64,000 bases of DNA, from the NCBI RefSeq assembly GCF_015244745.1, contig NZ_JABCQI010000009.1, positions 62,001 through 126,000 on the forward strand, read 5' to 3'. The DNA comes from Gluconobacter cadivus (GTDB lineage: Bacteria; Pseudomonadota; Alphaproteobacteria; Acetobacterales; Acetobacteraceae). Positions within the stretch are counted from its first letter, which is position 1. Every line of letters begins with the position of its first letter. Below the pieces are notes generated by a model. The model was not told the DNA's origin. It made no database searches and worked only from the letters and a program-made list of their open reading frames with translations. The position numbers and the translations under genes were made by a program. This document shows, one piece after another, positions 19,243 to 36,359 of the stretch.

Positions 19243-19803
19243 TCAGGCGCGGTTCGTGCGGCGTGTTGCGGCCTTTTTCGTCACGCCCTTGCGGGAATGG
19301 CGGTCCACGGTCGCTGGGGCTTCGCAGCTCTCATAGGAAGCAGGCTGGGCCACGTCCTTGGCTTCGGCGTAATGGGCCAGATCGGCAGAGCTTTCGAGAG
19401 CGTTGATCTCGTCGAACATTGCTTCGCGCTGCTGGCAGAACACCGTGCCGGATTTCAGTCCACCGAGCGACTGGATGTCGGCAAGCTGCGTGATGTAGTC
19501 GTCATGTTCGACCTGTGCGCGACGGCCATAGGTCGTGCGGAAATAGCTGTTCAGACGCTCGTCCGCATTCAGCAGGGCAGGGCGGAACTTGTTGACGAAG
19601 GCATTGTAGCGGTCCTGCGCCTTGCACGACAGCGCCGTCACCATCAGTTCGGACTTCAGTCCGGCCACATCGAAAGCCTCATGGGCGGGCGAATTGCCGC
19701 AGTCCGCAGCGCGGGCGGAAAGAGGATGAACAGCAGCAAGCGTAGCGCAGGAAAGCCCCACAGCAAGCAGGCCCTTGACGGAACGACGGAAGATCGACGG
19801 CAT
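19243..19803 (-). CDS. Exported protein of unknown function
   Basis: ATG 19803 is preceded by GGAG seven bases upstream and begins a signal peptide (MPSIFRRSVKGLLAVGL onward, ending SARAA). The mature protein of about 160 residues contains four cysteines, spaced so that two disulfides are possible, and predicted helices in the middle. The tail is strongly basic (KGVTKKAATRRTNRA). I do not recognise the family. It faces away from the lipoprotein gene at 20116 across a 312-base gap and lies 81 bases from the parE start. Confidence 0.65.
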   Translation of the reverse strand: MPSIFRRSVKGLLAVGLSCATLAAVHPLSARAADCGNSPAHEAFDVAGLKSELMVTALSCKAQDRYNAFVNKFRPALLNADERLNSYFRTTYGRRAQVEHDDYITQLADIQSLGGLKSGTVFCQQREAMFDEINALESSADLAHYAEAKDVAQPASYESCEAPATVDRHSRKGVTKKAATRRTNRA

Positions 19804-28332: not shown

Positions 28333-28965
28333 TCAGGAACGGGGCGCTTGGTCCACGTTCACGCGCGGCTCTTGGCCCGTTAGAAGGCGTGCAATATTGC
28401 TCCAGTGTCGTGCCCAGATCAGCATCGAGACGAGCAGCGTCGCCACCGGGATCGGGGAGTGCAGCGCGCGTCCGGACAGCAGCACCATCAGCATCGGCGC
28501 GAGCAGAAATGCCGCCAGAGCCCCGGCTGAGGAAATCCGGCTCAGGCGCGCCACCAGCAGCCACACCACGCAGCAGGCCAGCCCGACCGGCCAGGACAGA
28601 ACCCAGATCGTCCCGAGACCCGTCGCAACGCCCTTGCCCCCCTTGAAGCCGAGCCAGATCGGAAAACAGTGCCCGATAACGACAGCGACGGTTGCGACGG
28701 CCATGGTCATGTCGCTCGCGCCCGGAAAGAAAAACCGTGCGATTAGGACAGCGGCTGCCCCCTTGAGCGCATCCAGCAGCAGCGTGGCCGCTGCCAGACC
28801 GCGTCGTCCCGTGCGCAGGACATTGGTTGCGCCGATATTGCCCGAACCGATTTTGCGAATATCCCCGCCGCCAGAAAGCGCCGTCAGCAGCAGCCCGAAC
28901 GGAATACTTCCGATGACGTAGGACACGAGGAACAGCAGGATGAGCTGTGCCTGAAAGCCGCTCAC
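28333..28965 (-). CDS. plsY: Glycerol-3-phosphate acyltransferase PlsY
   Basis: The 210-residue membrane enzyme transfers the acyl group from acyl-phosphate to glycerol-3-phosphate, the first step of phospholipid synthesis. Five hydrophobic segments are visible. The three conserved loops are present: SIPFGLLL, GSGNIGATNVLRTGRRG, and the later GHCFPIWLGFKGGKGVATGLG. The ATG overlaps the stop of the upstream pyrC-like gene (ATGA), so translation is probably coupled. Confidence 0.95.
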   Translation of the reverse strand: MSGFQAQLILLFLVSYVIGSIPFGLLLTALSGGGDIRKIGSGNIGATNVLRTGRRGLAAATLLLDALKGAAAVLIARFFFPGASDMTMAVATVAVVIGHCFPIWLGFKGGKGVATGLGTIWVLSWPVGLACCVVWLLVARLSRISSAGALAAFLLAPMLMVLLSGRALHSPIPVATLLVSMLIWARHWSNIARLLTGQEPRVNVDQAPRS

Positions 28966-30248
28966 GAGCGGGCCTCCGCCAGCCCGTCAGCCGTGAAGAC
29001 TTCCACGCCGCGCTTGAAGGTCCGCAGGACACGGCCTTTCAGATTCCGGCCGTCAAAGGGTGTGTTTTGCGCGCGTCCCGGCAGGTCTCCGGCGAGCACA
29101 GTCCACGAGCCTTCCGGATCGAACAGGCACAGATCGGCATCGCTCCCGACTGCCAGCGTTCCGGCCTCAAGCCCCAGCAGGGCGGCTGGAGCGGAGGTCA
29201 GGAGACGCAACGCATCTACGAGTGGCAGTCCCGCGCCGAGCGTGACGCCCAGCAGCGTGACCAGTCCGGTGCCGCCAGCACGGGCCTGCGCGAAAGGCAG
29301 CCGCTTGTCATCCGCGTCCGCCGGAGCATGGTCGGAGGCTACAGCGTCAATCGTTCCGTCCGCCAGTGCGGCACAGACGGCCTGTCGGTCCGTATTGTTG
29401 CGCAAGGGAGGCGAGAGTTTCGCGTAGGTGCGGAAGTCGCCGATATCGTCTTCGGTCATGGCGAAATAGGGCGGCGCCGTATCGCAGGTCACGCGTACGC
29501 CCCGCCTTTTGGCTGCACGGATCAGGTCCAGCCCTTCTGCCGTCGAGACATGCGCGAAATGCAGCCGCGCGCCTGTCATGGCCGCCAGACGCAGATCGCG
29601 GGCGATCATGATGGCCTCGGCTTCGGCCGGAACCTGCGGCAGGCCCATCCGCACTGCGCGTGCTCCGGCGGTGGCACAGGCCCCTTTAGCCAGAGACGGA
29701 TCTTCCGGATGCTGCACCACGATGGCGTCCAGAAAGCGCGAATAGGACAGCAGGTTGCGCATCTGCTTGGCGTCCGAAATCGCGCGGGTTCCGTCCGTGA
29801 ACGCCACGGCTCCAGCGTTGCGCAGAAGCCCGAGTTCGGCCATCTCACCGCCCTCGCAGCCGCGCGTCAGCGCGCCGTAGGGATGGATCGAGACCATACC
29901 CGTCTCTTCGCCCCGGACCCGCAGCAGATGCACGAGCGCCGGGTTGTCGATCGGGGGCGAGGTGTTGGGCAGGACCGCCATGGTCGTGATGCCGCCTGCC
30001 ACGGCTGCCCGCGCCCCGGAAGACACGCTCTCGCGGTATTCCGATCCCGGCTCTCCGAGGGCCACGCGCATGTCCACCAGACCGGGACACAGGACGGCTC
30101 CCGCGCCATCAATGATCCGCGCGCCTTCGGGGACCGGTCCGTCTTCGCAGGCGACGATCTTGCCCTGACGCACAACTAGTCGCCCGATTTCGTCCCGGCT
30201 CGAAGCCGGGTCGATCAGGCGGACATTTTCAAAAACGATATCAGTCAT
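28962..30248 (-). CDS. pyrC': Dihydroorotase-like protein, probably inactive (PyrC'/PyrX type)
   Basis: The 428-residue protein has the class I dihydroorotase fold, but where active enzymes have D-x-H-x-H followed by REPG it reads [13 protein letters not shown] (residues 57-68), so both metal-binding His are missing. The later TPHH-like segment is also altered ([13 protein letters not shown]). HPED, HVSTAEG and ASDHAP remain. Such pseudo-enzymes overlap pyrB in Pseudomonas and others and act as structural subunits of aspartate carbamoyltransferase. The start overlaps the pyrB stop by four bases. A true dihydroorotase should be encoded elsewhere. Confidence 0.88.
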
Positions 30249-31186
30249 ACCGGCATCCGTGCCCGGGACAGACGGTCCAGAACCGCCATCCGCACAGCCA
30301 CGCCCATTTCAACCTGTTCGGAAATCACGCTCTGATCCGAATCCGCCACGTCCGAGGCGATTTCGACGCCACGGTTCATTGGGCCCGGATGCATAACCAG
30401 CGCGCCGGGATTGGCCAGTGCCAGACGGCGGCGGTCCAGCCCAAAGAAATGGAAATATTCCCGCGCACTCGGCACCAGACCCGCCCCCATGCGCTCCTTC
30501 TGAAGCCGCAGGGACATGACGACATCCGCGCCGTCCAGCGCCTTGTCCATGTCCGAATATAGCTCGACATTGCCGAGCTCAGCCATGGCCCCCGGCAGCA
30601 GCGTCGGCGGGCCGACCAGCCGCACCCGGTTTCCGAATGCCGTCAGCAGATGGATGTTGGAACGTGCCACCCGGCTGTGTCCGACATCGCCGCAGATCGC
30701 GACCGTAAGGCCCTCAAGACGGCCGAAATGCCGGCGGATGGTCAGCGCATCCAGCAGCGCCTGTGTCGGATGTTCATGCGTGCCGTCGCCCGCATTGACG
30801 ACGCTGGCTTCGACTTTCTGCGACAGCAGGGCGGGCGCGCCGGACTGCGCGTGGCGGATGACCAGCAGGTCACAACGCATGGCGTTGAGCGTCGCCGCCG
30901 TATCCAGCAGCGTCTCGCCCTTGTTCACCGAACTTGTGGCGACGGACATGTTGATGACGTCCGCGCCAAGCCGCTTGCCCGCGAGTTCGAAACTCGTGCG
31001 GGTGCGGGTGCTGTCTTCGTAGAACAGATTGATGACCGTCCGCCCCCGCAGCGCATCACGCGGCGCGGAGCGCGAACGGCTCAGCAGCGCATAGCTCTCC
31101 GCCAGATCGAGGAACGGCACGAGCTGTTCAGCCGACAGCCCCTCGATTCCCAGAAGATGCCGGGGGACGGAGGGCCGCTCAGCCAT
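30245..31186 (-). CDS. pyrB: Aspartate carbamoyltransferase catalytic subunit
   Basis: The 313-residue enzyme condenses carbamoyl phosphate and aspartate, the committed step of pyrimidine synthesis. The carbamoyl-phosphate loop [18 protein letters not shown] and [12 protein letters not shown] are present, as is [12 protein letters not shown] near the C terminus. No regulatory subunit gene (pyrI) is adjacent. Instead the pyrC' pseudo-subunit overlaps it, as in class A holoenzymes. The start overlaps the gltX 3' end by eight bases. Confidence 0.95.
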
Positions 31187-32597
31187 CGTTGGATACGGAA
31201 GCGAGAACGGCGGCGATGCGGGCCAGAACCTCGTCCTGTCCCAGCGCTGCGAGCGTCAGATCAATGCCCGGAGACGTCGTGGAACCGGTCATGGCCGCGC
31301 GCAGCGGCTGGGCCACGGAGCCGAGCTTGATCTCGTGTTTTTCAGCATAGGCGCGCAGCGTCGCATCGACGGTTTCCGGCGTGAAGTCCGAAAGCGCGGC
31401 CAGATCCTTGCCGACGCCCTGCAGAACCGTGCGCCCGTCCTCGCCCAGCAGCTTCTCGGCTTTAGGGGTGAAGGTCAGGGGCAGGGTGAAGCCTGCGAAA
31501 GCGGCATTGTCCGCCAGTTCCACGAGCGTCTTTGCGCGCTCCTTGAGGCCCGGCATCATCGCAAGGATGCGCGCGCGGGTCTTGTCATCCGTCACAACGC
31601 CGTCGCGACCTGCAAGGCGCTGCATGACGTCATCCGTCAGGCGCGCATCATCGGCAACGCGCATCCAGATCCCGTTCAGATGCGCCAGCTTGACGTAATC
31701 CATGCGGGACGGGGAGCGGCCTACGCCATCCAGATCGAAGAGCTTGATCTGTTCCTCGCGGGACAGGACTTCGGCATCGCCATGACCCCAGCCCAGACGC
31801 AGCAGGTAGTTGCACAGGGCTTCCGGCAGATAGCCTTCCTCGCGGAAATCCACGACCGACTGTGCGCCATGGCGCTTGGACAGCTTGGCGCCATCGGGGC
31901 CGTGGATCAGCGGCAGATGTGCGAAATGCGGCAGGTTCCAGCCCATGGCGCGATAGATCATGGCCTGACGGAACGTGTTCGTCAGATGATCGTCACCGCG
32001 CATGACATGGGTGATGTCCATATCGTGATCGTCCACGACCACGGCATGCAGATAGGTCGGCGTGCCGTCCGAACGCAGCAGGATCAGGTCGTCCATTTCG
32101 GAATTCGCGACCCGGACTTCGCCCTGCACCAGATCCTTGATGATCGTCTCACCGTCACGCGGGGCCTTCAGACGCACGACATACGGCGCACCGGCGGGCG
32201 CTTCGGACGGATCGCGGTCCCGCCATGTGCCATCGTAACGGGGCGGGCGCTTCTCGGCCATGGCCTTCTCACGCATGGCGGTCAGCTCTTCGGGGGTGCA
32301 GAAGCACTTGTAGGCCTGACCCTTTTCCAGAAGCTCAAGTGCCACTTCCGTATGGCGGTCCTGCCGGGCGGACTGGAAAACCGGTTCCGCATCCGCCTCG
32401 ATTCCCATCCAGGCCAGACCGTCAAAGATCACGTCCACGGCTTTTTGAGTGGAGCGTTCCTTGTCGGTGTCCTCGATCCTCAGAAGGAATTCGCCGCCGT
32501 GATGACGGGCAAAGAGGAAATTGAACAGGGCGGCGCGGGCGTTGCCGACATGCAGCAGACCCGTCGGGGAGGGGGCAAATCGCGTACGGATGGTCAT
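31179..32597 (-). CDS. gltX: Glutamyl-tRNA synthetase
   Basis: The 472-residue class I synthetase has [19 protein letters not shown] (HIGH-type motif as HVGN) at residues 6-24 and KLSKRHGAQ as the KMSKS equivalent. The motif [16 protein letters not shown] lies between them. The C-terminal anticodon-binding region is complete. Whether it is discriminating or also charges tRNA-Gln cannot be decided by eye; many alphaproteobacteria use the amidotransferase route. It is the first gene of a minus-strand run leading to DUF1491 at 22.1 kb. Confidence 0.94.
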
Positions 32598-32737
32598 GCC
32601 GCCATCATATCATGCTCTGACCTGCGCTTCCATCCGCCTGCGCCAGCGGGGCTGCGACGCTCCGTCACGAGCCCGCGCTTTACAAAAAGCTAAGGTTCTT
32701 CAAGCGCGTGTGATTTCCAGCGGCCTCCCGAAGCGGC

Positions 32738-32756
32738 CTATTGTGACGTTCAATAG
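32738..32756. promoter_or_regulatory. Operator-like dyad before the cupin gene
   Basis: CTATTG and CAATAG form a perfect six-base inverted repeat separated by seven bases. It lies 19 bases before the cupin start codon in the gltX/cupin divergent gap, so a bound regulator could block transcription or translation initiation. No regulator gene is adjacent. Confidence 0.4.
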
Positions 32757-32775
32757 TCCGGGTGGTGCCTTTCCA

Positions 32776-33363
32776 ATGAACAGACGCGATTTTAATGCCC
32801 TGCTGGCAGGGCTGGGTCTGACCTTCGGAGAGGGGAAGATCCATCACGCCAGCGCCACGACCTCCCGTGTGGATGTCTTTACGCTGCGCGCCAATGACTG
32901 GGTTCCGAACAATCCGGAACTCCCTGTCATCGTCTATCGCAATGCGCTCGAAGCCGGGCCGGATCGCGAAGCGGTGTATGAAGACCTGTTCAGCCGGAAC
33001 GGCTGGCCGCCGCAGTGGCGCAACGGTGTCTATCCGTTTCATCACTATCACAGCCTTGGTCATGAAGTTCTGGGCTTTTCCAACGGTTCCGCACGCCTGA
33101 TGCTGGGAGGGCCGAACGCCCGGACGGTCGAGGTGCGCGGTGGCGACATCGCCGTGCTTCCGGCCGGAACGGGGCACTGCAATCTCGGATCGGACACGGA
33201 GTTCACCGTCATCGGCGCCTATCCACCCAACCAGTCTTTCGACATCCTCCGCGCCGCGCCTACGGCGGAGCAGAGTGCCCGTATTCACGGCCTGCCATTC
33301 CCGAAAACCGATCCGGTTCAGGGTGCAGCAGGCGTCCTCGCACGGGAGTGGCACCCATCATGA
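32776..33363 (+). CDS. YjlB-type cupin protein with Tat-like leader
   Basis: The protein of about 195 residues begins with NRRDFNALLAGLGL, a twin-arginine-like start followed by a hydrophobic stretch. Homologous YjlB cupins are normally cytoplasmic and lack a leader. The cupin core is clear: NGWPPQWRNGVYPFHHYHS (His cluster), HEVLGFSNGSARLMLGG, VLPAGTGH and IGAYPPNQSFD. Metal binding through the HHYHS histidines is likely. Its stop overlaps the next start (ATGA), so the two genes are coupled. The function of the family is not established. Confidence 0.82.
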   Translation: MNRRDFNALLAGLGLTFGEGKIHHASATTSRVDVFTLRANDWVPNNPELPVIVYRNALEAGPDREAVYEDLFSRNGWPPQWRNGVYPFHHYHSLGHEVLGFSNGSARLMLGGPNARTVEVRGGDIAVLPAGTGHCNLGSDTEFTVIGAYPPNQSFDILRAAPTAEQSARIHGLPFPKTDPVQGAAGVLAREWHPS

Positions 33364-34085
33364 CGGGTTTTCCTCTCAGGCGGCGTCCGTTCCTCGCAGC
33401 GCTTGCTGGTCTGGCCACGGTCAGCAGCGCCAGTGCGGTCGAGGCGACGAGCCAGAAAATGCGGATCGGCATTATCGGCACAGGTCATGTCGGTACGACG
33501 CTGGCGGAGCTCTGGGTTCATGCGGGTTATCCCGTCATGGTGTCATCGCGCTCCCTGAGCGAGGCGCAGTCTCTGGCCACATCGCTGGGCCCGCTCGCCA
33601 CGGCCGGAACCCCGGCGCAGGCGGCGGCCTATGGCGATGTGGTGGTGCTGGCCGTCCCCTATGGTGCTATTCCGCAGCTCGGCCCGCAGCTCAGCCGGAC
33701 GTTGTTGGACAAGGTTCTGCTTGATCCGTCCAATCCCTATCCCTGGCGGGATGGGGCGATTGCGGACACGGCGCAGCGGGACGGGGCGGGGGTGACGACA
33801 CAGCGTTATTTCCCTTCGGCGCATGTGGTGCGGGCGTTCAACTCCATCGATATGACCACGCTACGTTCCGAGGCGCATCGCGCTTCGCCGCTTCTGGCGG
33901 TTCCGGTGGCGGGGGATGATGCGCAGGCTGTCTCGCAGGTGACGACGCTGGTGAGGGCAGCCGGATTCGACCCTGTCGTGACCGGCAATCTTGCGACCGC
34001 AAGGCTGTTTCAGCCGGGGAGCACCGGGTTTGAACTGGAGCGGGATGCTACCGGTCTGAAACAGGCGCTGCACCTTCCGCAGTAG
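33360..34085 (+). CDS. Tat-exported NAD(P)-binding oxidoreductase (F420-reductase-like fold)
   Basis: The 241-residue protein starts with LRRRPFLAALAGLA, a good Tat signal, and a cleavage site after SSASA. The mature part opens with MRIGIIGTGHVGTTLAELW, a GxGxxG dinucleotide fold, and has VVLAVPYGAIPQL, SNPYPWRDG and VVRAFNS, typical of the NADPH-dependent F420-reductase-like family. Tat export would allow folding with NADP(H) before transport, as for glucose-fructose oxidoreductase of Zymomonas. The substrate is unknown. It is coupled to the cupin gene by an ATGA overlap. Confidence 0.8.
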   Translation: MTGFPLRRRPFLAALAGLATVSSASAVEATSQKMRIGIIGTGHVGTTLAELWVHAGYPVMVSSRSLSEAQSLATSLGPLATAGTPAQAAAYGDVVVLAVPYGAIPQLGPQLSRTLLDKVLLDPSNPYPWRDGAIADTAQRDGAGVTTQRYFPSAHVVRAFNSIDMTTLRSEAHRASPLLAVPVAGDDAQAVSQVTTLVRAAGFDPVVTGNLATARLFQPGSTGFELERDATGLKQALHLPQ

Positions 34086-34147
34086 ATTGAGCCGCAGGAG
34101 GCGCTGACCTTAATCGGGGAGGCGCGTCCTGCGGAAAAATCCGTTAC

Positions 34148-34171
34148 GGTTCTGTTTGTGAAGACAGAACC
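34148..34171 (+). promoter_or_regulatory. Hairpin enclosing the comEC start codon
   Basis: GGTTCTGT (34148-34155) and ACAGAACC (34164-34171) are perfect complements, and the comEC GTG lies in the eight-base loop between them. Such a fold would affect ribosome access. No good ribosome site is visible upstream. Confidence 0.45.
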
Positions 34172-36359
34172 CCTTTCCGTCCCGGACCTTGATCCGCGCG
34201 AACTACTGGAGCGCGAAGAAGGCCTCGACCTTGTGCCGAAGCTGCCTTCGCCCCTGATCCGGTCTATGCTGGATCAGGGGCGGCAGATGATCTGCTGGCT
34301 TCCGGTGGCAGTCGGGCTGGGGGCCGTGTTCTATCTCGTCCTGCCGTTTGAGCCTTCCATCCTGTCTGTTGTGTTTGGCACTCTTTCGATGGGGCTGTCA
34401 GGGGCAGCGTGTCTCCGGTGGGGCTGGCAGCGGCTGTTTCCGCGCCTGCTGGGGTTTGCGCTGCTTGCTTTTGCGGCTGGTTTTGGTGATCTGGCTTTTC
34501 AAGCCTGGATTCAGCCGCCCATGCCGGTGTTGCCGACCCATGCCACCGTTCTGACGGGCCGCGTACAGTCGCTGGAAATCCTACCGCCCCGGAATGATGA
34601 CGAAGATGACGGCCATCGCATCACTTTGGCCGATGCCGTGTTCGACACGCCCGTTGATGCCGGAATGGCCCCATTGCGCCGGACGCTGCATATTCGCCTG
34701 CGGGACGATGACGATCTGTTGCCCGAGCCGGGAAGCACGATCAGTCTGCGCGCGATGCTGCGGCCGCCGCCACCGCCGTCATGGCCCGGCGGACGCGATC
34801 TTCAGCGCGAGGCATGGTTTTCGGGACTGGCGGGAAGCGGTTATGCGCTGGGGCCAGTCAGTCTTTCAGGCGCAGCGGTCCGGGCTTCATGGATCGAGAC
34901 CCTGCGCGAGGCTGTCGCGTTCCGCACGGCAGCTGTGCTGCCCGACCAGACCGCCGCCATTGCCGCCACGCTTCTGGCCGGTGAAGCCGGAGGGATTGAC
35001 CAGCAGACGCGGGAGGCATTTTCCGCATCTGGGCTGGCGCATCTTCTTGCTGTGGCGGGGTTGCATCTGGGGCTCGTAATGGCGGCTGTGATCGTGACGC
35101 TGCGGTGTGGTCTGGCGTCGATTGAATATGTCGCCCTGCGCTGGCCCTGTCGGCAGATCGCCGCCGTTTCGGGGTTGTTGGCCGGGGCGGGCTATGTGCT
35201 GTTGACGGGGGCGCATCTGCCCAGCCTGCGGGCACTGGGCATGGCGAGCCTCGTGACGCTGGCCATTGTGACCGGGCGGCGTGTCCTGTCCATGCGGTCT
35301 TTGTCCATTGTGGCGTTGCTGATCCTGCTGGTTTCGCCGGTGTCGGTCGTGGATGTGTCGTTCCAGATGTCTTTCGCCGCCGTGATGGGGCTGATTGCGG
35401 GCTATGGTGTGCTGCGTGAGCCGCTTATGCGGCTGCGCGGGGAGGGGAAGTGGTACAGGGTTGTGGCGTCCTATGGCGCGGCCCTGACGCTGACGAGTCT
35501 TCTCGCCGGCTTGGCGACGCTGCCGGTCAGTATGGCGCATTTCGGGGCGTTTCAGCCGTGGTTTGTGCTGGCCAATCTTGTGGCCGTGCCGCTTGCAGCT
35601 GTCTGGATCATGCCGGTTGGGCTTCTGGCGCTTGTTGCCATGCCGTTTCATGCCGAAGCGCCGTTTCTGAAACTCATGGGCGTGGGCATCCGCATCGTGC
35701 AGGCGCTGGCGGAGCGGGTGGCGGCGTTTCCGATGGCGCATCAGCCTGTTCCGGCCATGCCGGGCTGGGGGCTGCTGTTCGTGATGCTTGGGCTGTGTTT
35801 TCTGTGCCTGTGGAAAGGCCGGGTTTCTCTGGTCGGTCTGCTGCCGGTGGCGATCGGGGTGGCGTCGATCTGGCTGGTCCCGAAACCGGATATTTTCGTG
35901 TCGGCGGATGCGGGGCTGATGGCGGTGCGCCGTCCGGACGTTCTGCTGGTCGGTCCGCATTCCGGTCTGGAACGCCGCACGCTGGAAGACTGGCAGCAGG
36001 CTCTGGCGCTTCCGGTGGCGCCTCTGCCGCCGGACTGTCTGGCTGGTTTATGCCGGATCAGCGTCGAGGCGCAGACTGTTCTGCTGCGTCCCCGGGACTC
36101 ATCGGATGGCGCCATTCTCCCGGATGCGCGGCAATGCGACGGGGTGAGCCTGTTCATCAGCGCATCTCCCGCCCGTAAAGGCTGCGCGGATGTGCCGTCC
36201 ATCGACCGGTTTTCGGTCTGGCGCGACGGGGCTTATGCCGTGTTCGCCGGGCGTGCCCTTACGATTGTTTCGGATCGGAGCTGGCGTGGAAACCGGCTCT
36301 GGGTGCCGCCCGTGGGTTGGCACGGCATGCCGAACCTGCCTCTGGCTCAGTCCGAGTAA
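34158..36359 (+). CDS. comEC: ComEC/Rec2 family DNA-uptake channel protein
   Basis: The 733-residue inner-membrane protein has an N-terminal DUF4131 region with several hydrophobic helices, a soluble OB-like segment (about residues 115-240) and a competence domain with many helices. The conserved segment AIAATLLAGEAGGIDQQTREAFSASG is interrupted only by normal variation, and LAVAGLHLGLVM, LTGAHLPSLRALGMA and FQMSFAAVMGLI follow. The C-terminal metallo-beta-lactamase domain of Bacillus ComEC is missing, which is usual for this class. It probably moves single-stranded DNA inward. The GTG 34158 start is provisional; it lies in a hairpin loop. Confidence 0.88.
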   Translation: MKTEPLSVPDLDPRELLEREEGLDLVPKLPSPLIRSMLDQGRQMICWLPVAVGLGAVFYLVLPFEPSILSVVFGTLSMGLSGAACLRWGWQRLFPRLLGFALLAFAAGFGDLAFQAWIQPPMPVLPTHATVLTGRVQSLEILPPRNDDEDDGHRITLADAVFDTPVDAGMAPLRRTLHIRLRDDDDLLPEPGSTISLRAMLRPPPPPSWPGGRDLQREAWFSGLAGSGYALGPVSLSGAAVRASWIETLREAVAFRTAAVLPDQTAAIAATLLAGEAGGIDQQTREAFSASGLAHLLAVAGLHLGLVMAAVIVTLRCGLASIEYVALRWPCRQIAAVSGLLAGAGYVLLTGAHLPSLRALGMASLVTLAIVTGRRVLSMRSLSIVALLILLVSPVSVVDVSFQMSFAAVMGLIAGYGVLREPLMRLRGEGKWYRVVASYGAALTLTSLLAGLATLPVSMAHFGAFQPWFVLANLVAVPLAAVWIMPVGLLALVAMPFHAEAPFLKLMGVGIRIVQALAERVAAFPMAHQPVPAMPGWGLLFVMLGLCFLCLWKGRVSLVGLLPVAIGVASIWLVPKPDIFVSADAGLMAVRRPDVLLVGPHSGLERRTLEDWQQALALPVAPLPPDCLAGLCRISVEAQTVLLRPRDSSDGAILPDARQCDGVSLFISASPARKGCADVPSIDRFSVWRDGAYAVFAGRALTIVSDRSWRGNRLWVPPVGWHGMPNLPLAQSE

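Follow-up and report, generated by a model that had tools for sequence, protein, structure and literature searches.

A gene pair of Gluconobacter and other bacteria encodes a cupin and an FNO/STEAP-type Rossmann protein, both with predicted export leaders

Introduction

Export by the Tat system is already known for NADP proteins (GFOR and AAOR), for an F420-binding protein, and for a cupin. GFOR of Zymomonas is an NADP protein with a Tat signal (PMC6708511), and its relative AAOR of Caulobacter has a Tat signal as well (PMC4628093). Rv0132c of M. tuberculosis binds F420 and is exported by Tat (PMC3478262). MncA, the manganese cupin of Synechocystis, is exported by Tat and thereby traps Mn in the cytoplasm (PMC4192464). 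STEAP4, whose oxidoreductase domain is relevant below, uses NADPH and possibly a diffusible FAD (PMC6194020).

Here we describe a pair of genes from Gluconobacter cadivus that lie in a stretch of 64,000 nucleotides, which we will call the window. The first gene encodes a cupin and the second encodes a Rossmann protein, and both proteins have a predicted export leader. Export of the Rossmann protein is unexpected, as NADP is found inside cells and the relatives known so far act there. Enzymes linked to NADP are expected to be cytoplasmic. The export of GFOR is reported to depend on NADP binding (Halbig 1999, cited in PMC6708511), and to our knowledge, the known NADP enzymes outside the cytoplasm (those of the GFOR type) all rely on a bound cofactor that is carried across by Tat. 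In listings of open-licence papers, we found no report of a cupin/Rossmann pair or of an exported FNO-type protein. A clade of FNO/STEAP proteins with leaders, its link to a Tat cupin, and the replacement of Tat leaders by Sec-like ones were not seen in those listings and are apparently new.

The gene pair and its surroundings

A preliminary description of the locus reported two genes with RRDF and RRRPFLA starts, joined by ATGA. This was borne out (Table 1) and is backed by the conservation of the leaders (see below). The overlap probably couples the translation of the two genes. Across 49 loci with the pair (counted as distinct Rossmann domains), the genes are always on the same strand and in the same order, and the spacing between them, with gene starts picked by a script, is -4 in 27 loci and -1 in 4, with the remaining 18 taking other values. 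The window cupin is 99% identical to the cupins found at named loci of G. kondonii and G. albidus.

Table 1. Features of the cupin/Rossmann gene pair, with positions in the window
Feature	Position	Strand	Basis
Cupin gene, 195 aa	32776..33363	+	Full cupin motifs; matches to cupin models weak; AlphaFold2 mean pLDDT 86.8
Rossmann gene, 241 aa, F420_oxidored (PF03807), FNO/STEAP type	33360..34085	+	PF03807 at 66.2 bits; mean pLDDT 90.7
ATGA stop/start overlap of the two genes	33360..33363	+	Sequence
Predicted Tat leader of cupin, residues 1-27, RRDF	32776..32856	+	Putative cut after ASA
Predicted Tat leader of Rossmann protein, residues 1-26, RRRPFLA	33360..33437	+	Putative cut after ASA
First metal motif of cupin, H90 H92 E97	33043..33066	+	Each in 89/89 deduplicated cupin rows
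Fourth expected metal ligand of cupin, H134	33175..33177	+	89/89 deduplicated cupin rows
Dinucleotide-binding glycines G40xG42xxG45	33477..33494	+	Conservation in exported-clade rows
R64, aligned with SR of FNO/STEAP	33549..33551	+	49/61 exported-clade rows, 19/22 leaderless rows; putative role
R158 of RAFN, mark of the exported clade	33831..33833	+	R in 61/61 clade rows; K in 20/22 leaderless relatives

The cupin begins with MNRRDFNALLAGLGL, with MNRRDFNALLAGLGLTFGEGKIHHASA as its leader, and the N-terminus and leader of the Rossmann protein is MTGFPLRRRPFLAALAGLATVSSASA. In the AlphaFold2 models, the first 30 residues have low confidence (block means of 46-55) and most of the remainder has high confidence. 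Scans of positions 32550-34300 gave no promoter-like site and one terminator-like site, which lies within the cupin gene; this does not exceed what shuffled sequences gave.

The flanking genes on the minus strand (28962-32597 of the window) look like pyrC, pyrB, and gltX, and the gene downstream of the pair (34158-36359) presumably encodes a ComEC-like membrane protein; these names were read by eye. Elsewhere in the window (19243-19803, minus strand), another ORF has an RR-type start followed by a signal-like stretch (FRRSVKGLLAVGLSCATLAAVHPLSARA).

Identity of the two proteins

The preliminary description called the cupin YjlB-like. In cupins generally, three histidines and one glutamate, spread over two motifs, are the ligands of the metal, and the window cupin has all four. 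It falls under the gathering scores of the general cupin models (the best is Cupin_1, at 16.7 vs. 22); among the members of an alignment of 27 cupins (A1), the best match to a cupin model is to Cupin_2 (E = 1.9e-06). The window cupin is below the cut-off for bicupin oxalate decarboxylases (TIGR03404, 20.7 vs. 254.2) and has one domain. Among solved sequences, it comes closest to oxalate decarboxylases and to SLL1358 (2vqa), which we take to be MncA; all of these matches are weak (E = 6.9e-05 for MncA). MncA is an exported cupin too, but it has two cupin domains instead of one. A fold search with the cupin model gave TM-scores (by query) of 0.24-0.37 among the 50 matches listed, and so gave no functional lead. 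We also considered the cupin-type phosphoglucose isomerases (PGI-type, PF06560), and rejected them: this family is not listed for the window cupin, and it is listed for 4 of the 27 members of A1 with a best E of 0.056. Nothing that we found favours the isomerase that the preliminary description had suggested.

The Rossmann protein, at 66.2 bits, is well above the cut-off of PF03807 (21.6 bits), and all 31 members of an alignment of its relatives (A2) are listed for this family at E ≤ 1. It is similar to FNO and NpdG (1jax, 5n2i) in its Rossmann fold, its GxGxxG motif, and its sequence and fold matches. But it has a leader, its score is far under the curated cut-off for NpdG (TIGR01915, 51.8 vs. 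149.8 bits), and its host lacks CofD (PF01933 has no matches in the host genome, G000, while the control matched in 10 of 14 genomes). Without CofD, the host presumably has no F420. The protein had initially been likened to F420 reductases, and this label does not hold: the protein is FNO/STEAP-like by fold, and we reject F420 reductase as its function in this host. Its relatives on plasmids are named "NADPH-dependent F420 reductase" in databases, which is silent on export and is likely wrong about the cofactor for this host. Rv0132c is a precedent for Tat export with a bound deazaflavin, but the host here lacks CofD, and the fold of Rv0132c is a different one (luciferase-like).

Among solved structures, the top fold matches of the Rossmann model are STEAP3, STEAP2, 4huj, 3dtt, and 5n2i, with FNO (1jax) at rank 14; several of the closest folds have NADP in their titles. 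4huj (SMa0349 from Sinorhizobium meliloti) is also the top profile match. The oxidoreductase domains of the STEAP proteins (2vns, 9pgw, 6hcy) are the best fold matches in the PDB, and their SR is at the same place in a profile alignment. However, the STEAP domain is cytosolic and is joined to a haem membrane domain, whereas this protein is a single, stand-alone Rossmann domain behind a predicted export leader, with 241 amino acids and no joined haem membrane domain.

GFOR and AAOR are likewise NADP-type Rossmann proteins with a Tat signal. But they belong to a different family (Gfo/Idh/MocA), and some relatives of the window protein have Sec-like leaders. We rejected the GFOR family for the window protein, as Gfo/Idh/MocA is absent from the 10 Pfam families listed for it at E ≤ 1.

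In the clade of exported-type Rossmann proteins (described below), G40 and G42 are present in 61/61 rows and G45 in 92%. Y101, P105, G142, G144, and R174 are further marks of this clade. Judging from the alignment, we expect R64 to lie at the 2'-phosphate of NADP.

Predicted leaders

Both proteins have an N-terminal RRxF-type motif, a mildly hydrophobic stretch, and AxA, by eye and by script, which agrees with the original description of Tat-like leaders on both. A single leader is weak evidence because a crude rule (RR plus a hydrophobic stretch) also fires by chance: it is satisfied by 22 of 385 Met positions inside genes, and by 7 of the 45 ORFs in the window. (Throughout, leader labels are from a hydropathy script and from reading by eye.) The curated models for Tat signals did not bear out the prediction, as neither window leader, scanned alone, matches TIGR01409 or PF10518 at E ≤ 10. 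When 10 leaders were scanned alone, TIGR01409 listed two, one of them above its cut-off, and PF10518 listed the same two, neither of them above. The relative L103 exceeds the TIGR01409 cut-off (19.2 vs. 16.7). Among alignment members, TIGR01409 matches 1/27 of A1, and PF10518 matches 1/27 of A1 and 1/31 of A2. The host does have TatC (PF00902, E = 4.4e-69).

Comparisons between genomes are more informative. At least 90% of the cupins in A1 (27 rows, two of them leaderless) have R3 and R4, and all 31 rows of A2 have R8 and R9 in the Rossmann leader; A2 is a selected set, as its rows were picked from the best hits that bear a leader. Within the genus, among genes of equal length (19 cupins and 18 Rossmann genes), the arginine codons for R3/R4 and R7-R9 vary between AGR and CGN and no arginine is lost. 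In this genus set, pN/pS for the n- and h-regions is 0.142 for the cupin (residues 2-16), vs. 0.153 for the mature part, and 0.127 for the Rossmann protein (residues 2-18), vs. 0.328 for the mature part; for the entire leader (residues 2-27), the values are 0.30 and 0.231. So the n- and h-regions of the Rossmann protein are more constrained than its mature part, those of the cupin are about equally constrained, and the c-regions are less so. We also considered a short cytosolic form that would be made from an internal start, and rejected it: only 6 of 20 genus sequences have a Met immediately ahead of the domain. Overall, these comparisons of sequences lend good support to the proposed export of both proteins.

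Tat and Sec-like leaders in the Rossmann family

In a quick tree of 83 Rossmann sequences, 61 form one clade (SH-aLRT of 98, the only kind of support computed; several leaderless rows are on long branches). In this clade, 53 have Tat leaders, 7 have Sec-like leaders, and one, the frameshifted L004, is leaderless. The other 22 rows are all leaderless. The preliminary description had named a general lack of the leader in homologues as evidence against export; this lack is not seen in close homologues (60/61 of the clade have leaders) but does hold for remote ones (22/22 leaderless). The tree omits L195 (which has an RR leader; its domain was misplaced by the script), the fragments L010, L046, L054, and L116, rows under 170 amino acids, and rows that are over 93% identical.

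In the Enterobacteriaceae (the family of genome G446), 8 of 295 genomes have an exported-type Rossmann protein (E ≤ 1e-52). Seven of these have Sec-like leaders and one (L224) has a Tat leader. One of the seven, L219, has a lipobox (LLTGC) and is the same as L145 from Erwinia; we set the Rossmann labels of L145 and L219 to Sec-like by hand because of this lipobox and because the RR is upstream of the likely start. A twin-arginine cupin is just upstream in 6 of the 8 loci, and in all six, the Rossmann partner is Sec-like or lipoprotein-like. Thus, the conserved property is predicted export rather than Tat itself, because these partners of Tat cupins have Sec-like or lipoprotein leaders.

A copy on a Pantoea plasmid (L226) is Sec-like with no cupin seen nearby, and the relatives in P. 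lini and P. umsongensis are Sec-like by eye. The Sec-like members keep GxGxxG and SRHP (10/10 loci, including some duplicates). In L219 (= L145), L220-L223, L225, and L226, the NADP-type SRHP is kept despite the Sec-like or lipoprotein leader.

Distribution and pairing

Of 26 genomes in the genus-level group, 25 have a full-length cupin, and G015 has a remnant of 30 residues. In 25 genomes the Rossmann gene is present at the locus, and in 23 of these it is near full length; it is split at a contig end in G011 and is frameshifted just after the leader in G020. G006 keeps the cupin and is missing the Rossmann gene (the best match is 36% identical and is elsewhere). G006 and G015 imply that the two genes can be lost separately. 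The comparisons support joint inheritance of the pair in acetic acid bacteria.

Some individual loci are worth describing. In L110 (4560-4760, G. sphaericus) and L004, a frameshift lies just behind a readable Rossmann leader, due to either a pseudogene or a sequencing error. In L117 (G. frateurii) and L017, the Rossmann gene is missing and the cupin frame extends for 100 further residues. In L026 (from G015), a Rossmann gene with a leader is beside a cupin that is cut to its last 30 residues, and in L089, an interrupted cupin adjoins an intact Rossmann partner.

Across the host family (249 genomes), 84 have a match to the cupin and 134 have a match to the Rossmann protein (E ≤ 0.001). Most of the lower-scoring cupin matches leave out the leader and start at query residues 27-42; in this family, leaders were examined in the fetched loci (batches of up to 30). 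A broader set comprises 80 named cupin loci, the best 80 among the 574 relatives listed. The flank includes the Rossmann gene in 23 of them: 21 are from acetic acid bacteria and the others are from Erwinia endophytica and Tatumella. Twin-arginine cupins without a Rossmann gene in the flank (up to 4 kb) are found in Acidobacteriota, Pantoea, Phytobacter, Azotobacter, and others. "Unpaired" here means no match in the flank, which was about 1.5 kb for some loci and up to 4 kb for others.

A tree of 89 cupins includes 25 paired ones, all with Tat leaders; 35 unpaired ones with Tat leaders; and 29 leaderless ones, all unpaired. By a Fisher test, p is 7.9e-06 for these counts, although the rows are not independent and the pairing needs about five changes on the tree. 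The number of gains or losses of the leader is unsure because 49 of 86 inner branches are open. This tree omits L089 (the interrupted cupin, labelled leaderless, whose neighbour is a Tat Rossmann gene), L080, rows shorter than 120 amino acids, and rows over 93% identical. Labels were set by hand to none for L069, L142, L147, L172, L177, and L183, and to Tat for L145 and L219. If L089 is kept, then the cupin is of the Tat type at 48 of 49 pair loci.

We compared the neighbours of five groups of paired loci (Gluconobacter, Acetobacter, Gluconacetobacter, Neokomagataea, and Enterobacterales). Only the cupin and Rossmann clusters span all five, and we found no third neighbour or membrane partner in common among the neighbour clusters. 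The Rossmann cluster has 20 loci, of which L226 and L231 were fetched via the Rossmann gene itself. Four clusters of flanking genes, with 9-12 loci each, which we take to be pyrC, pyrB, gltX, and comEC, are confined to Gluconobacter, except for one Acidobacteriota locus in the first (presumably pyrC). Clusters 2 and 22 lie opposite the cupin or Rossmann gene, on the other strand, and were taken as antisense readings, and the generic clusters 7 and 8 recur among unpaired loci (8 and 7 loci).

Could the partner of an unpaired cupin be encoded elsewhere in the genome? In 24 sampled genomes with an unpaired cupin, we found an exported-type Rossmann protein (E ≤ 1e-60) in 3 of 12 with Tat cupins (Azotobacter vinelandii and two Pantoea) and in 2 of 12 that were intended to represent leaderless cupins (P. 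lini and P. umsongensis); the latter set includes L164, which has an RR leader according to the script. As most of the sampled genomes with an unpaired Tat cupin lack an exported-type Rossmann protein, the partner is not needed everywhere, which argues against an obligate pair. Conversely, several genomes have an exported-type Rossmann gene, with its motifs intact, and no cupin in the flank. In a sample of 398 genomes across the phylum, 40 have a Rossmann match (E ≤ 1e-25) and 36 have a cupin match (E ≤ 1e-30). Besides the window's own, we read 29 of these cupin loci, and by eye they are mostly leaderless, with the exceptions of L258, L263, and perhaps L279-L281.

Two plasmid loci also have cupins of this type. 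On a Klebsiella conjugative plasmid (L227, 5001-5612), a twin-arginine cupin has chromate transporter genes and an IS1 element in its vicinity. On an Azotobacter chroococcum plasmid (L228), a Tat-type cupin is a few genes from cytochrome c, a GMC oxidoreductase, and a gluconate 2-dehydrogenase subunit. The neighbours of L228 are a possible hint of periplasmic sugar-acid chemistry.

Proposed roles of the cupin and the Rossmann protein

We propose that the two proteins form a periplasmic module in which a metal-preloaded cupin, like MncA, and an FNO/STEAP-type oxidoreductase share a substrate. We consider this somewhat better than an even bet. Both proteins would leave the cytoplasm, by Tat in the Gluconobacter lineage. 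The cupin would fold around its metal (likely Mn or Fe) in the cytoplasm and would be exported folded, as MncA is; by analogy, securing the metal is a plausible reason for Tat export here as well. In the lineages with Tat leaders, the Rossmann partner would also be exported folded, probably with a bound dinucleotide. In the periplasm, it may pass hydride between its cofactor and either a flavin or a small carbonyl compound, and the cupin may act on this substrate too, either ahead of the partner or following it. Gluconobacter makes sugar-derived acids and ketones in the periplasm, and the substrate is perhaps one of these. Both the substrate and the cofactor are guesses. As for the exported pair that was originally envisioned, both proteins do have leaders, but Tat cupins of the same family also occur without the Rossmann gene.

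Alternatively, the Rossmann protein might be a nicotinoprotein like GFOR, in which NADP is locked in prior to Tat export and is then recycled as one substrate in the periplasm is oxidized and a second one is reduced; the cupin would then be an accessory isomerase or lactone enzyme. The Tat leader, the conservation of GxGxxG and (in 49/61 members) of R64, and the precedents of GFOR and AAOR, with their Tat signals and the reported dependence of GFOR export on NADP, are consistent with this idea. However, the partners in Enterobacteriaceae are Sec-like or lipoproteins and yet have the same SRHP motif, and a preloaded cofactor cannot pass through Sec, so these members are hard to reconcile with it. 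Also, the protein has no match to Gfo/Idh/MocA at E ≤ 1, and it is small and lacks the substrate domain of GFOR. A GFOR-like mechanism suits the Tat lineages, but the Sec-like lineages argue against it as a general rule, and the comparison with GFOR in the preliminary description, with the cofactor loaded before Tat, does not fit them. We view this explanation as possible but doubtful.

The main alternative to a GFOR-like mechanism is STEAP-like use of a periplasmic flavin. The exported clade might pick up its cofactor in the periplasm (FAD or FMN, or scavenged NAD(P)) and act as a flavin or metal reductase, like an outward-facing, soluble STEAP domain. The domains of STEAP3 and STEAP2 are the top structural matches, STEAP4 is a precedent (NADPH and possibly diffusible FAD), and the Sec-like members would need to be loaded after export. 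But no membrane partner is common to the five groups of paired loci compared, most members retain R64, an indication of NADP, and we know of no periplasmic source of NADPH. This seems unlikely.

The exported Rossmann protein might instead be non-enzymatic, as a binding or scaffold protein that stabilizes or matures the cupin. This would explain their close linkage in acetic acid bacteria, but it seems inconsistent with the Rossmann genes that have intact motifs and no cupin in the flank, and with G015, which keeps the Rossmann gene after losing most of the cupin; we think it very unlikely. Least probable of all is that the leaders are non-functional and both proteins are cytoplasmic: the crude rule does give false positives (22/385) and the Tat models miss both window leaders, but the arginine pairs are kept through synonymous codon changes, Sec-like leaders replace Tat leaders with export kept, and no internal start is conserved (6/20 genus sequences have a Met before the domain).

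Returning to the proposed periplasmic module, its Rossmann component belongs to an FNO/STEAP clade with conserved leaders, some of them Sec-like, which raises the question of which nucleotide is used outside the cytoplasm. This is testable in Gluconobacter, an industrial organism that carries out useful chemistry in the periplasm. A bolder extension, which we offer as speculation and judge to be distinctly unlikely, is that the clade comprises widespread periplasmic enzymes that use pyridine nucleotides or flavins, with a Tat cupin that makes or consumes the substrate. Since the Sec-like members fold outside the cytoplasm, they would load their dinucleotide from an extracytoplasmic pool. If this is true, then periplasmic redox chemistry with NADP or flavin would not always rely on a cofactor carried by Tat.
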